A stretch of DNA of 64,000 nucleotides from Polynucleobacter sp. UK-Mo-2m-Kol15 (lineage in GTDB: Bacteria > Pseudomonadota > Gammaproteobacteria > Burkholderiales > Burkholderiaceae): the NCBI RefSeq assembly GCF_018881505.1, contig NZ_JACVQC010000001.1:1843927-1907926 (forward strand), read 5' to 3'. The notes below the pieces were generated by a model. It did not search any database. It was given only the letters and a program-made list of their open reading frames with translations, and was not told the origin of the DNA. A program made the translations under genes and the position numbers. Below, piece by piece: positions 563-5,086 of this stretch. Position 1 is the first letter of the stretch. Every line of letters begins with the position of its first letter.

Positions 563-1414
563 CTATTCATCATCTGAGGTTTTTGCTGGCCCTAACTCCA
601 CCGGCAGCGGTTTTCCATCTTCATCAAGCTCTATGGCATAAACCATGTTTGGATACATCTCTATTGGGAAAGCGATTCGGTAACCCACTAACCATACTTG
701 AAACTTTTTACCTTCTTTAAGTATAGTTTTCAGTCTTTGAGAGTTAACTTTGGCTAACCACCATGCATCCTTGTTAACAAACTGCCTAAAGTCATTAGGC
801 CCATCAAAACCTTTAGCCAAAATCACATATGAGGCATCCCCAGCTGTAGCAATATTATCTCTAATGGAGTTAATCGCAACGATCTCTACCTCCTGAGGAC
901 GGGGGATAATAAAACCGAGTGGTCCAAGCACTAAAAAGAAAGGGATAACCAATACGATCACCTTTCTGGCAAATGTTAGCTCCCAGAAAGTGAAGATACT
1001 CGACTGAATAATAATAATGGTTTTGCGTACCTCAATTAAAAACTCTCCAATAACCATAAAGTAAGTGTATTTCCAGAAAGACTTGAAGAAAAGGTTACTC
1101 TCTTGCGCCTTATATAAAGCTTCAAAAGGAAGGCCGGATGCGACGCCCAGAGGAATAGTCAAGAAGCGGAGCAACATTCGCATGGTTGTTAATACCTTCT
1201 CTAGGAACCAAATCCAAAACCTAAATATGGCAATAAACACATAGACTATAAAAAGAAGAATGCGGAGAGTTAAAAACAAATCCCAAAAAATACGGAAAAT
1301 ACTTTTAAAGAAATTGATAAACTTGGCAAAAGAACTTGACGCCAAAGCTTCCCCCTTAGAGAGCTGGCTAGTTTTTTCTGGCGGGGGAAGCTTGGGAGGG
1401 TTAGATTGGGACAT
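563..1414 (-). CDS. Uncharacterised membrane protein with DUF1523-like C-terminal part
   Basis: The protein has 283 residues. A Pro/Ser-rich N-terminus is followed by several hydrophobic, aromatic-rich stretches (about residues 33-70, 80-95, 118-140 and 150-170), then a soluble C-terminal half. That half ends with a pattern (VWLVGYRIAFPIEMYPNMV) reminiscent of the DUF1523 family, where a similar Trp/Phe-rich strand closes the domain; I hold this match only loosely. It converges on the P450 gene with a 30-bp gap. The next minus-strand gene upstream is followed by its own terminator, so this gene probably has a separate promoter. The function is unknown. Confidence 0.7.
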   Translation of the reverse strand: MSQSNPPKLPPPEKTSQLSKGEALASSSFAKFINFFKSIFRIFWDLFLTLRILLFIVYVFIAIFRFWIWFLEKVLTTMRMLLRFLTIPLGVASGLPFEALYKAQESNLFFKSFWKYTYFMVIGEFLIEVRKTIIIIQSSIFTFWELTFARKVIVLVIPFFLVLGPLGFIIPRPQEVEIVAINSIRDNIATAGDASYVILAKGFDGPNDFRQFVNKDAWWLAKVNSQRLKTILKEGKKFQVWLVGYRIAFPIEMYPNMVYAIELDEDGKPLPVELGPAKTSDDE

Positions 1415-1453
1415 AAACCCTGGAGTTCAATTTTAAAAGTAAAGAGTCAACAA

Positions 1454-1474
1454 CAAAAAAGGCACAAAGTGCCT
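1454..1474 (-). terminator. Rho-independent terminator
   Basis: The inverted repeat AGGCAC-AAA-GTGCCT (1460-1474) is followed, reading on the minus strand, by a run of six or more T. It lies 25 bp after the stop of the small gene at 1500-1760 and should end that transcript. Confidence 0.8.
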
Positions 1475-1499
1475 CTTCTGAATTGATTAACAAACGCTA

Positions 1500-1760
1500 T
1501 TACTTCTTAAGGTCTTTTAATTCGGAACGTAAACCATGAATTTCGCGTTCTAAATTTTTCTCGCGACCTTCAATTGCTTCTTCACGAATCTTTTTAGCTT
1601 CTTCAACACCTTCAGACCATACGGTTTGGGAAAATTCTTTTGCAGACAAAGCAGCACTCACTGTACCAACCAACAGTGGGCGAATTACCTTAGGAATAAT
1701 AACAGTAGAAACTGCACCCAGTACAAAAGTAAACAGGGGCTTAGAAGCCAATTGAATCAT
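1500..1760 (-). CDS. Small membrane-anchored protein with charged helical tail
   Basis: The frame is open further upstream, but the ATG at 1760 is preceded by GGGAG at good spacing and gives an 86-residue protein. Residues 1-35 are hydrophobic and should form one or two membrane helices. Residues 40-86 are Glu/Lys/Arg-rich with heptad-like spacing and end in a predicted amphipathic or coiled-coil helix. The architecture matches the divergent gene at 1910 (hydrophobic anchor plus charged helix), although the sequences are not close. It recalls the DUF5132 type of small protein, but I cannot confirm that. It has its own terminator. The function is unknown. Confidence 0.7.
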   Translation of the reverse strand: MIQLASKPLFTFVLGAVSTVIIPKVIRPLLVGTVSAALSAKEFSQTVWSEGVEEAKKIREEAIEGREKNLEREIHGLRSELKDLKK

Positions 1761-1846
1761 GAATATCTCCCTTAAAGTTGCAGTTTTTGACCTAAAATAG
1801 CTGTAAAAAAATACCGTATCAGTATATAGTAACAGCCATAGAGAGA

Positions 1847-1866
1847 GCAAATTTAACTAAATTTGC
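1847..1866. promoter_or_regulatory. Palindrome between divergent small genes, candidate operator
   Basis: GCAAATTT and AAATTTGC are perfect 8-bp inverted arms around a 4-bp spacer, with partly matching GAGA/TCTC flanks. They sit in the 149-bp divergent region between the minus gene starting at 1760 and the plus gene starting at 1910. No T-run follows on either strand, so an operator is more likely than a terminator. The cognate regulator is not identifiable. Confidence 0.45.
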
Positions 1867-1909
1867 GTCTCACAATGTGCCTTATTAACCTCTCAAAACT
1901 TAGACCACT

Positions 1910-2152
1910 ATGCTTATTGCAGTCATTTCTTTCCTAGCCGGCCTATTTTTTGCGCCAATTTTGCGCCCTTTAATTAAGCCTTTTTTCATTGAAATCATTA
2001 AATTTTCTTACTCCGCTGTGGAGGAAGCTAAAAAGGCAACGGCCAAAGCGAAGGAAGATTTGGCCGATGCTGTCGCCACTGCTGAGCGTGGAATAGTCGA
2101 AGAGGCAAAAAACAAAGAGGGTGAAGAAAATACCCCTCCCAAGCATCACTAA
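1910..2152 (+). CDS. Small membrane-anchored protein with charged helical tail
   Basis: The protein has 80 residues. Residues 1-30 form a hydrophobic anchor with prolines (FFAPILRPLIKPFF). Residues 35-70 are Ala/Lys/Glu-rich and should form a long amphipathic helix, and the tail ends with two histidines. The design parallels the divergent protein at 1500-1760. It is followed after 26 bp by the ParA-like gene on the same strand, so the two may be co-transcribed. The ribosome binding site is weak. The function is unknown; a membrane-tethered adaptor is only a guess from shape. Confidence 0.65.
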   Translation: MLIAVISFLAGLFFAPILRPLIKPFFIEIIKFSYSAVEEAKKATAKAKEDLADAVATAERGIVEEAKNKEGEENTPPKHH

Positions 2153-2178
2153 ATCACAAAGTATTGCAGCTGGCTCGC

Positions 2179-2973
2179 ATGAGAGTTATTAGTGTTGCCA
2201 ACCAAAAAGGGGGGTGCGCCAAGACTACAACAGCAGTTAATCTTGCTGCTTCCCTTGCTGAAACCAAAAAGAGGGTTTTGCTGATCGACCTGGACCCCCA
2301 GGCGAATGCATCCCAGTGGCTTGGAGCTAGTAACCCAGCCAAAACCTCTTTTTCGATATTCAGCTCAAAAATTCCTATTCAGGATCTTATTCAGCCCACC
2401 CAAGTGACAGATATCAACATCATTTCTGGTCATCAAGATTTAGCATCTGTAGAAAAAGTGGTTGCCAATGAACTAGGGGTCGACTTTTTACTGAAACGAC
2501 GCTTAAGGGACCTCAATCCCAAGGACTGGGATTTCATCATAATCGACACCCCACCAACCCTCGGCTTGCTAACAGTGAATGCGCTCACCAGCTCTGGCGA
2601 ACTATTAATCCCAGTAACAACACACATCATGACATTAACTGGTGTAGCGCAACTCATTAATAAATATAATGAGATTAAAGAAGTCTTAAATCCAGATCTG
2701 GAAATCCTTGGTTTTCTTCCATCACGCGTTGATACTAGAACTAAACACTCAAAAGAGATATTGCAGTCACTGATCGATAGATTTGGAAATAAAGTCTTGA
2801 AAAGCGTCATTCGCGAAAATATACGACTCGCGGAAGCCCCCTCTTTTAATGAAAATATATTAATTTATGATGGGCAATCAGGCGCAGCAAAGGATTATCG
2901 AGAATTAGCGCAAGAAGTAATTCAATTGGGGAAAAGTTATGCCAAGATCAAAAAAATCGACCATTCAGAATAA
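2179..2973 (+). CDS. ParA/MinD-family ATPase without an adjacent ParB
   Basis: The protein has 264 residues from the ATG at 2179; a TTG five codons earlier is also possible. It shows the deviant Walker A KGGCAKTT (residues 10-17) with both signature lysines, Walker A' LLIDLDPQANAS, and Walker B FIIIDTPPTLGLLT. Family members are nucleotide-switch ATPases that dimerise on DNA or membranes and position cargo such as plasmids, chromosomes or protein clusters. Chromosomal parA normally lies beside parB and rsmG; neither is here. The overlapping downstream gene encodes a membrane protein and the upstream gene a membrane-anchored mini-protein, which hints at a role at the membrane rather than plasmid partition. 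That role is inference. Confidence 0.9.
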   Translation: MRVISVANQKGGCAKTTTAVNLAASLAETKKRVLLIDLDPQANASQWLGASNPAKTSFSIFSSKIPIQDLIQPTQVTDINIISGHQDLASVEKVVANELGVDFLLKRRLRDLNPKDWDFIIIDTPPTLGLLTVNALTSSGELLIPVTTHIMTLTGVAQLINKYNEIKEVLNPDLEILGFLPSRVDTRTKHSKEILQSLIDRFGNKVLKSVIRENIRLAEAPSFNENILIYDGQSGAAKDYRELAQEVIQLGKSYAKIKKIDHSE

Positions 2974-3598
2974 CCCCTTAGAGCAAATTTCACCTATTGC
3001 TGATGTTGAGAAAATCAAAAATTCAATCGGTCCAAAAAAACAAAGTATTAATAAGAAATCTTCTGCTGCTAAAGATAAGGCACCACCCCCCGATAAGAGT
3101 CCCGAGAGAAAGAAGGTCTCTGCCACCAAGTCGACAATCACCATATCTGGCACCCCTAAACGCGGCTCCAATGAGATAGAGCGAGATTTACTTGCCTTGT
3201 CTACGATCAAAAAATGGTCTCGTCTAGCAAGCGCCTGTGCAATACCCCCAGTACCCCTACTTGCTACCGCTGCAAGCAGCGGTGTACAGATAAAGATGAT
3301 TAAAGATTTGTGCTCTATTTATGAGATACCCTTTCACAAGGAATTGGTTCAAGCGACCATCAGCAGTATCCTAGGCAGCGGAACCGCCTTATTTTCTCTA
3401 GGCTATCTTGCCAAGGAGTTGTTATATGGAATTCCTTATGCAGGAAACATTCTGTTGGTCCTTACGCAACCGGCTGCGATTTATAAATTAACAAGCAGCT
3501 TAGGAACTCTTTTCATGCGCCATTTCCAAAATCAAGGTGATCTCACTAATCTAGATATAAAAGAATCCAGGTTGGCGTTAAAAAATCAATTGCAATGA
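2939..3598 (+). CDS. DUF697-like membrane protein with basic disordered N-terminus
   Basis: The protein has 219 residues and overlaps the end of the ParA gene by 35 bp in another frame, with GGGG just upstream of its ATG. This indicates translational coupling. Residues 1-80 are Lys/Ser/Pro-rich and probably disordered. Residues 85-190 contain hydrophobic segments with a pattern (ALSTIKKWSRLASACAIPP, then GVQIKMIKDLCSIYEIP) resembling the DUF697/YcjF-type membrane domain, in which a similar motif precedes a Gly-rich hairpin. Homology is judged by eye only. Coupling to ParA suggests that the ATPase acts on or through this protein. Confidence 0.7.
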   Translation: MPRSKKSTIQNNPLEQISPIADVEKIKNSIGPKKQSINKKSSAAKDKAPPPDKSPERKKVSATKSTITISGTPKRGSNEIERDLLALSTIKKWSRLASACAIPPVPLLATAASSGVQIKMIKDLCSIYEIPFHKELVQATISSILGSGTALFSLGYLAKELLYGIPYAGNILLVLTQPAAIYKLTSSLGTLFMRHFQNQGDLTNLDIKESRLALKNQLQ

Positions 3599-3739
3599 GA
3601 TCGCCTGCTCCTTAAACCCCTAAGAGCTGAAGATATTAGCAATATCAATTTTTTCAAAATGCTATGTAACGGAAAAAAACTAGCGTAAGTACTTGTGAGA
3701 TCTAGAAATCCATCTTATATTGAATTTAGTTGAGTAAAT

Positions 3740-4546
3740 TTAAAAAATTTTTCTGAGGGCGATTAATTCAATCTCAAAATCACCTAAATTAACCTTGCCC
3801 AACCTTGGAAACTCGAGTCCAAGAATAATAAAAATTGTTCCCGTCATTAAGATGGTGAACATAATGGTGAGCAGCCAATCTCTTTGATTTTGGATTCCCA
3901 AATTGTAGCCAGCAACTAAAGATCCGACCATACATAAAAGAATTAATGCCTGAAAAACAATGCGTGGAGGATGAAATTTGATCGCTAAGCGCTGATTTTC
4001 TGAGGCAGTAAACATATCAGATAATTCGGGCAAGATTTGCGCAGCAACTAATTTCTGGGGAAATGGTGTTTCACTGACTGCAAGCACAACCTCTTTCCAT
4101 ATTTGACTAGCAATCGCATTATGTACATCAATCCGAGACCTTAACTCTTTCTCGGATAAATCACCTTGTGATTGATATAGATTAATTCGGGTATCTAGGT
4201 ATTCTCTAAAAAGCTCTCGAATCTTAGGCTGGTCTTTTGTCGCTAGAAGATCAATGGACTGATATGCCGTTCCTAGGGAACTAACTTCCTGAACAATGAG
4301 TTGTCGTCGGTGATCAAAACGATCAGAGGCGCCAGAAAAAGTAATGGCAACTAACAGGGCTAACAAACCAAAAATAGACGCCAAGAATGTATCGCTCGAA
4401 TCTGCTTTTTGAATATGGTATTTTGAAACGAGAAAAGTTCCAGTACGCCACCCTATTTCTACCATCAATAACATACACAGCAATAATACCCAGAACATCA
4501 TATTGGATGTCAGAAGATATATGATCAGGTCTTCATTAAATAGCAT
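3740..4546 (-). CDS. DUF4239 (bestrophin-like) membrane protein
   Basis: The protein has 268 residues. Two hydrophobic helices at the N-terminus (about 12-35 and 52-72) are followed by the family-typical stretch GLLALLVAITFSGASDRFD and RRQLIVQEVSSLGTAYQ. A soluble helical middle follows, then two more helices near residues 195-250. This layout and the conserved segment match DUF4239, a family of unknown function compared with bestrophin channels. It converges with the plus-strand gene ending at 3598 and has no operon partner. A channel or transport role is not proven. Confidence 0.8.
   Translation of the reverse strand: MLFNEDLIIYLLTSNMMFWVLLLCMLLMVEIGWRTGTFLVSKYHIQKADSSDTFLASIFGLLALLVAITFSGASDRFDHRRQLIVQEVSSLGTAYQSIDLLATKDQPKIRELFREYLDTRINLYQSQGDLSEKELRSRIDVHNAIASQIWKEVVLAVSETPFPQKLVAAQILPELSDMFTASENQRLAIKFHPPRIVFQALILLCMVGSLVAGYNLGIQNQRDWLLTIMFTILMTGTIFIILGLEFPRLGKVNLGDFEIELIALRKIF

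Positions 4547-4996: not shown

Positions 4997-5086
<90 letters not shown>

Follow-up and report, generated by a model that had tools for sequence, protein, structure and literature searches.

A ParA-family ATPase and its proposed tail-bearing partner recur with DUF697 beside natural-product export genes in Burkholderiales

Background

In the available passages of PMC10241942, partners of ParA-family ATPases generally contact the ATPase through a charged N-terminal stretch, and many ParA/MinD ATPases are called orphans whose partners are unknown. The McdA-McdB system likewise consists of a ParA-type ATPase and a dedicated partner; according to the available McdB passages of the preprint PMC12204374, the first 20 residues of McdB are necessary and sufficient for contact with the ATPase, with lysine 7 as a critical residue. 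Here we analyse a ParA-family ATPase gene (positions 2179-2973, + strand) and the gene that overlaps it (2939-3598, +) in a 64,000-nucleotide stretch of the 2.18 Mb genome of Polynucleobacter sp. UK-Mo-2m-Kol15 (C10:1843927-1907926), which as a whole is called the window; L and G handles denote the loci and contigs with which it was compared.

Several described systems resemble this locus in part. As in McdA-McdB, a short basic N-terminal peptide of the partner is the candidate for contact with the ATPase dimer, whereas we saw no carboxysome genes among those examined, the partner body is DUF697 or another protein, and the TIxxNPL motif described below does not occur in the available McdB passages (PMC12204374). 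The chromosomal Soj-ParB pair of the same genome, which sits elsewhere (L001), shares the ParA family (39% identity) and a ParB that starts with a basic tail (MVATKKKGLGRGLEALLG), but it differs in its KGGVGKTT P-loop, in having parB next door and in the tail itself. Among plasmid and phage systems, the nearest ParAs found outside our set, one on Cardinium plasmid pCher and one from a viral contig, share the partner tail, attached to an apparently DNA-binding body rather than to the DUF697-like body found here, on a chromosome and beside natural-product genes. Finally, nonribosomal peptide synthetase (NRPS) clusters with a cyclic peptide exporter and a prohibitin-family protein share the exporter-SPFH cassette of our related loci, with DUF697 nearby in the Skermanella plasmid pSM-2; unlike those loci, the Skermanella stretch has no ParA annotated, and the cluster next to the window is of the type III polyketide synthase kind, with an HMA_2-bearing ATP-binding cassette (ABC) exporter.

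The adjacency of exporter and prohibitin is already in print for Thalassobaculum (PMC12016528, in the part available), and the words prohibitin, SPFH and DUF697 are absent from the available main text of an article that deals with the Tistrella didemnin cluster (PMC10811503). Among the literature matches listed, which were open-licence papers and in which 'ParA' also matches words in 'para-', there was no earlier description of a ParA with natural-product clusters, with DUF697 or with SPFH-NRPS cassettes.

Results

Conservation of the ATPase and its partner

Seventeen distinct other Burkholderiales loci carry a ParA approximately 50-61% identical to that of the window, and with the window they make up the 18 module loci considered here. 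The window ATPase, 264 residues long from its ATG, matches Pfam AAA_31 at 169.9 bits, and its best solved relative is 8ray (177.3 bits). Its P-loop, KGGCAKTT (2206-2229, +), bears out the intact KGGxxKT that a sequence-only reading of the window had reported. Walker residues K9, K14, D38 and D122 (counting Arg2 as 1) are invariant, along with their neighbours, in an alignment of all 18 module ParAs, and by this alignment the protein has the signature lysine of the deviant Walker A motif and the Walker B motif of the ParA/MinD (Soj-like) family. The module ParAs have no common C-terminal extension resembling the membrane-targeting helix of MinD.

The second gene overlaps parA by 35 bp, as that reading had it, and encodes a proposed ParA partner of 219 residues, in which a basic unstructured N-terminus (approximately residues 1-76) precedes a helical DUF697-like domain (approximately 79-217). 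An AlphaFold model with a mean predicted local distance difference test score (pLDDT) of 63.8 has helices from residue 77 onwards and leaves residues 1-76, of net charge +12, almost wholly unstructured. For the label DUF697-like, homology and score point different ways: search and alignment place the protein among the DUF697 proteins of the genus, and the related L046:2057-2563, which itself scores 39.1 for DUF697, finds it at 1.3e-9, but its own match to Pfam DUF697 (PF05128) is 25.0 bits, below the gathering cut-off of 27.7. Compared with PDB structures the model had no significant match (best E 1.1), and compared with solved sequences the protein had no relative (best E 0.094).

Relatives of the DUF697 protein occur in 10 of 186 genus, 2 of 150 order and 14 of 397 phylum genomes, the own genome being counted in each, and when the genus DUF697 alignment was run against named genomes it returned 32 loci, eight of them contigs that also have a G handle. 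The only search free of DUF697-based locus choice was that for the P-loop KGGCAKTT, which is found in 9 of the 186 genus genomes, every one of them belonging to the 10 with a DUF697 relative (hypergeometric p = 1.7e-14, kinship uncorrected); in the remaining one, G698, the assembly is 78% complete and the contig begins within the partner gene. Across 399 order genomes the pattern occurs in the own genome only. By gene order and co-occurrence, the pairing of ParA with the DUF697 protein is real and conserved.

The sequence-only reading had proposed a module of four genes, in which two small proteins accompanied these two, and had suggested tabulating whether they stay together across Burkholderiales. 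They do not: the 80-residue protein and a 283-residue neighbour were found in none of the other genomes examined, neither they nor the 86-residue protein have a relative at E<0.05 in 148 other loci, and we rejected the four-gene set as the unit. To judge from the loci compared, the unit is ParA with its tail-bearing partner, and the set that recurs consists of ParA, the tail-bearing partner, DUF697 and an ABC exporter, usually with an SPFH protein, beside biosynthetic genes.

The claim that parB is missing fares better. The genome's own ParB, used as query, matched nothing at E<1e-5 in any of the 17 other module loci, where a regularly adjacent parB would have pointed the other way, and there was no ParB among the six window genes near parA that were submitted to profile libraries. 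As far as these searches go, the ATPase is not part of a ParABS system with parB adjacent to parA. The description 'orphan' does not follow from this: given the conserved pair and the tail motif, the window ParA probably has a partner, namely the DUF697 protein of the overlapping gene.

The tail motif and its mobile-element counterparts

The DUF697 protein starts with a candidate ParA-contacting tail, MPRSKKSTIQNNPLEQI (2939-2989, +), which includes the motif T-[IVL]-x-x-N-P-L. A basic stretch with this motif is encoded in all 18 module loci, and in 16 of them its gene directly follows parA. The window and seven other loci have tail and DUF697 in one protein, L047 has a broken copy, and in nine loci the tail sits on a separate protein of 161-275 residues ahead of DUF697, a stand-alone form for which the structural model was poor (pLDDT 56.8). 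In a descriptive six-frame count over 51 distinct loci, from which 17 duplicate loci had been excluded, the motif matched 18 times in 488,964 residues of open reading frame (ORF), always in module partner proteins, and a reversed-motif control matched once in the same residues. The motif lies at residues 7-9 in 17 of the 18 partners. By predicted disorder and gene order, a dedicated partner gene with a basic disordered N-terminal tail thus adjoins the ATPase gene, as in McdAB. In G575 (L047:6206-9682) the partner, exporter and SPFH frames are split, and this copy is degraded or mis-sequenced.

The same tail is found with ParAs of mobile elements. The best plasmid match of the window ParA is on Cardinium plasmid pCher (47% identity, KGGSAKTT), and of the 12 plasmid ParA matches listed it is the one whose next gene was read: a 111-residue protein that begins MAKRQTIGENPLDSLI and has the tail motif. 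Scanning viral contigs for KGG[CS]AKTT gave 37 stretches, 33 with a readable ParA ORF and 32 with a downstream ORF, of which one is a motif partner: after the L144 ParA, 49% identical to that of the window, the next frame holds MTRKTIGDNPLDAW and a C-terminal part like that of the Cardinium partner. The two nearest non-module ParAs found are therefore both followed by tail-bearing small proteins, and the genes examined with Soj and with the other viral ParAs (at most 35.2% identical) have no motif. Judged by eye, the Cardinium and L144 partners appear to resemble ribbon-helix-helix DNA-binding proteins; Pfam gives the Cardinium partner nothing above cut-off (best BrnA_antitoxin, 16.5 of 26.1 bits). 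A viral scan with the window DUF697 protein found no relative. KGGCAKTT, tried as a module-specific signature, is specific within the genus and fails outside it, with a single motif partner among the viral stretches.

In a tree of 35 ParAs, of which 20 are motif-paired and 15 are others (Soj and 14 viral ParAs hand-picked from 32), the 20 motif-paired ParAs form one side of a single branch (81/98) that is present in 83% of 200 bootstrap trees, and none of 500 shuffles was as low. This tree replaced a first one with a long-branch paralogue, which was uninformative. From these outgroups we infer that a swap, if it took place, went from DNA cargo to other cargo.

Natural-product export genes in related loci

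All 17 other module loci encode a cyclic-peptide-type ABC exporter, and 14 have an SPFH/band-7 gene; those without it are contigs of 3.8, 5.5 and 6.9 kb. Of the same 17 loci, 12 have an MbtH gene, 5 an NRPS condensation-type stretch and 3 a LanM-like lanthipeptide synthetase, and 15 have at least one of these three. Family names were taken from single representatives: those of L039 match the TIGR01194 cyclic peptide exporter (330.6 bits, above cut-off), Band_7 (94.7), MbtH (62.9) and Condensation (165.3), and that of L043 matches DUF4135 and LANC_like. The comparison set comprised 27 loci that lack a ParA of this clade, with other ParA-type genes present in L053 and L101; L041, L044, L084, L088, L099, L100 and L103, which are short or second copies, were left out.

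Related arrangements vary in their chemistry. LanM-type lanthipeptide synthetase genes lie beside the ParA/DUF697/exporter/SPFH module in L043:1377-10755, in L042 and in the G595 contigs (L048/L075), and an AurF-like gene accompanies the module in L042 and L043 (below the Pfam cut-off in L043); because it stands beside lanthipeptide and AurF-like genes, the module is not bound to one chemistry. The Skermanella plasmid, as annotated, carries NRPS, MbtH, prohibitin, exporter, hydrolase, hypothetical protein and DUF697 genes, and on Tistrella mobilis plasmid pTM3 (L122:3-24146) large NRPS genes stand next to DUF697, SPFH and cyclic-peptide-type exporter genes. A gene for a lipoprotein-like protein of approximately 430 residues (L043:13421-14719; lipo430) is present in 12 of the 17 module loci and in none of the 27 comparison loci, and is possibly another member of the cassette. 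On the gammaproteobacterial contig L101 (1242-2852), a different ParA (KGGTGKTT, 309 residues) is joined by a DUF697 protein with the basic tail RTRRRLYDSPVDE; next to them lie another DUF697 gene and an exporter of the cyclic-peptide type, and this is perhaps an independent ParA-DUF697 pairing.

The polyketide cluster beside the window

Directly left of the window, in the 17.9 kb upstream (L066), lies a type III polyketide cluster whose last gene, for a cytochrome P450, is cut by the window edge (3' part at 2-532, +; whole gene L066:17242-18459; NCBIfam P450 matches all under equivalog cut-offs). Away from the window the P450 is followed by a ferredoxin, an MsbA-like ABC exporter, a 245-residue protein, an MhpA-like FAD monooxygenase, a malonyltransferase-like protein, an enoyl-CoA hydratase, a DpgA-like type III polyketide synthase (406 bits, cut-off 425), a DUF4440 protein, a pyridoxal phosphate enzyme and a methyltransferase. 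At its N-terminus the exporter (L066:14909-16987) carries HMA_2 (33.3 bits, against a cut-off of 30), the sole HMA_2 match in the 186 genus genomes.

From approximately 10 kb left of the window to approximately 8 kb inside it (~18 kb), G+C in 2-kb steps is 0.40-0.43, against 0.452 for the whole 102 kb and 0.42-0.50 in the other steps. A tRNA-Ser (cga) gene at 4997-5086 lies inside this stretch, near its right end. The low G+C and the tRNA-Ser gene hint at a horizontally acquired island, for which the tRNA gene may mark the integration site; the 102 kb showed no tRNA repeat of at least 16 bases.

Discussion

The pairing of ParA and partner is well supported by the loci compared, while positioning is what we propose on top of it. 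Our best reading, which we hold with moderate confidence, is that a partition ATPase of mobile-element type, with its partner's tail swapped, positions natural-product export machinery. The DUF697 partner would contact the ATP-bound ParA dimer via its basic N-terminal tail, as ParB- and McdB-type partners do, and stimulate its ATPase, and the DUF697 body would tie the partner to the machinery of natural-product export or biosynthesis. The cargo would be the HMA_2-ABC exporter and type III polyketide synthase enzymes directly upstream in the window, and in the relatives the cyclic-peptide ABC exporter and SPFH protein of NRPS or lanthipeptide clusters. By locally releasing nucleoid-bound ParA, the tail could spread the export assembly along the cell and divide it between daughters by a Brownian ratchet. 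Since ParA-family partners, McdB among them, make their contact through a charged N-terminal stretch, the tail fits a role in ParA contact, and on that fit we propose that DUF697-borne tails would release ParA. The tail itself may have moved from a partner with an apparently DNA-binding body, as in the mobile-element ParA systems, to a protein or membrane cargo.

Several observations weigh against this proposal. At the same thresholds, 17 of the 27 loci without the clade ParA have an SPFH gene and 13 the exporter, so positioning would not be essential for export and ParA would be an added layer on an export cassette rather than part of its core. In the window locus neither a cyclic-peptide exporter of the relatives' type nor an SPFH gene was found, in searches of which one had no positive control, and the cargo of the window copy itself is therefore the least certain. 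All loci were fetched via DUF697, which makes the adjacency of ParA and DUF697 partly a matter of construction. In two of the 18 loci, G641 and G595, the exporter follows parA and the motif is on a DUF697 protein 6.8 kb off (G641) or on another contig (G595), and in L039 the motif lies at residue 58. The motif was defined on the same 18 loci in which it was counted, as TI..NP[LMI] at first and later widened to T[IVL]..NPL, and its independent tests are the plasmid and viral cases alone, both from a handful of near ParAs. The ParA tree drew long-branch warnings, including one at the join of Soj with the motif-paired set, and the contact between ParA and peptide is putative. Where the sequence-only reading had described a membrane protein with a basic disordered N-terminus, the basic and unstructured part is confirmed and the membrane part is not: the most hydrophobic 19-mer of the window copy reaches 1.36, against up to 2.05 in relatives by hydropathy, and the membrane nature of this copy is uncertain.

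Other explanations draw on some of the same evidence. ParA relatives with regulatory roles are known, and the existence of export cassettes that lack this ParA, which makes ParA an optional layer, would also suit a ParA and partner that regulate the cluster or switch it at enzyme level and position nothing, as would be the case if the ATP state of ParA set exporter activity or gene expression; the closest relatives found for the clade, however, are plasmid and viral ParAs with tail-sharing partners of partition type, and we regard such a switch as unlikely. Those mobile-element relatives would in turn favour a true partition system for DNA, belonging to a mobile element that has integrated and lies next to the polyketide cluster by accident, as would the low local G+C with the tRNA-Ser gene inside it and the patchy presence in the genus. 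Yet the partner body is DUF697-like and not DNA-binding, the DUF697 protein has no phage match, the same ParA type stands beside exporters in every other module locus, and neither a ParB nor a tRNA repeat was found (no search was aimed at parS-like sites or integrases); we think a DNA partition role very unlikely.

ParA might instead space an intracellular membrane compartment, namely a vesicle that the ABC transporter loads for storage or toxin sequestration and that is built with the help of DUF5132-like mini-proteins encoded next to parA. The SPFH proteins of the relatives and the HMA_2 domain of the window transporter would fit, as would an HMA_2-like gene (L120:8460-8792) within 1.5 kb of the DUF5132 gene in the single DUF5132-positive genome among 140 Pseudomonadota. 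But that link comes from one genome in which the HMA_2 match is below cut-off (21.8 of 30 bits), the DUF5132 match in the window is also below cut-off, and the vesicles themselves are hypothetical; we consider such a compartment improbable.

If ParA does position the export machinery, a short motif that in the loci examined is confined to one grouping of ParAs would both name the partner and predict the cargo class, natural-product export machinery, and the relocation of a single tail would suggest a route by which a partition ATPase changes cargo. Production and self-protection could then depend on where the exporter is located, and the tail would offer a transferable tag with which to position proteins. 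The sequences suggest, without proving it, that a group of freshwater bacteria actively positions its natural-product factories in the cell. Only tentatively, and with less than even confidence, would we extend this to the statement that some Burkholderiales position and apportion natural-product factories or exporters via a captured plasmid-type ParA, by means of an exchangeable TIxxNPL tail moved to DUF697-linked machinery, which would amount to a new class of ParA cargo and a code in the sequence by which the partner is recognised.

Other genes of the window

After the DUF697 gene comes a gene for a Bestrophin-like protein (3740-4546, -; 50.1 bits against a cut-off of 32), for which we saw no link to the ParA module. 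On the other side of parA, an ORF for a 283-residue protein with two hydrophobic segments above 2.7 (563-1414, -) is in probable membership of the same island as ParA; of 121 genus genomes a search found it in the own one only, and it has no Pfam match at E<=1 and a weak PHROG match to phrog_301, 'secreted protein' (27.2 bits). A scan for promoters and terminators gave signals no stronger than in shuffled sequence.

The two mini-proteins are encoded between this ORF and parA. They are divergent, as had been noted, and of a common plan, with a single hydrophobic segment close to the start of each (Kyte-Doolittle 19-mer maxima 1.87 and 2.17 for the 86- and 80-residue proteins) and a charged helix-like tail. 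The 80-residue protein (1910-2152, +) ends 26 bp upstream of parA and its gene is probably co-transcribed with parA; the 86-residue protein (1500-1760, -) bears a faint similarity to it (BLASTP 18.9 bits, E 0.004 in a single comparison). Among 41 relatives the 80-residue protein was found in the own genome only, and it is thus specific to the window variant.

Its match to Pfam DUF5132 (PF17195), 18.6 bits against a cut-off of 25, makes it DUF5132-like rather than a member of that family, and the DUF5132 searches found no match in any of 14 control genomes either, so that absence elsewhere is not demonstrated by them. A link to ferrosomes or metal pumps, prompted by HMA_2 and DUF5132, was considered and found weak: ferrosome-type compartments have a P1B-type metal ATPase in the cluster, and no P-type ATPase was found in profile libraries among the 17 genes of L066:6905-18459 and window 563-4546. 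In the DUF5132-positive genome a second HMA_2-like gene, by a resemblance judged by eye, overlaps the DUF5132 gene, and the mini-proteins may, on this slender association, be accessory to the HMA_2-ABC exporter.

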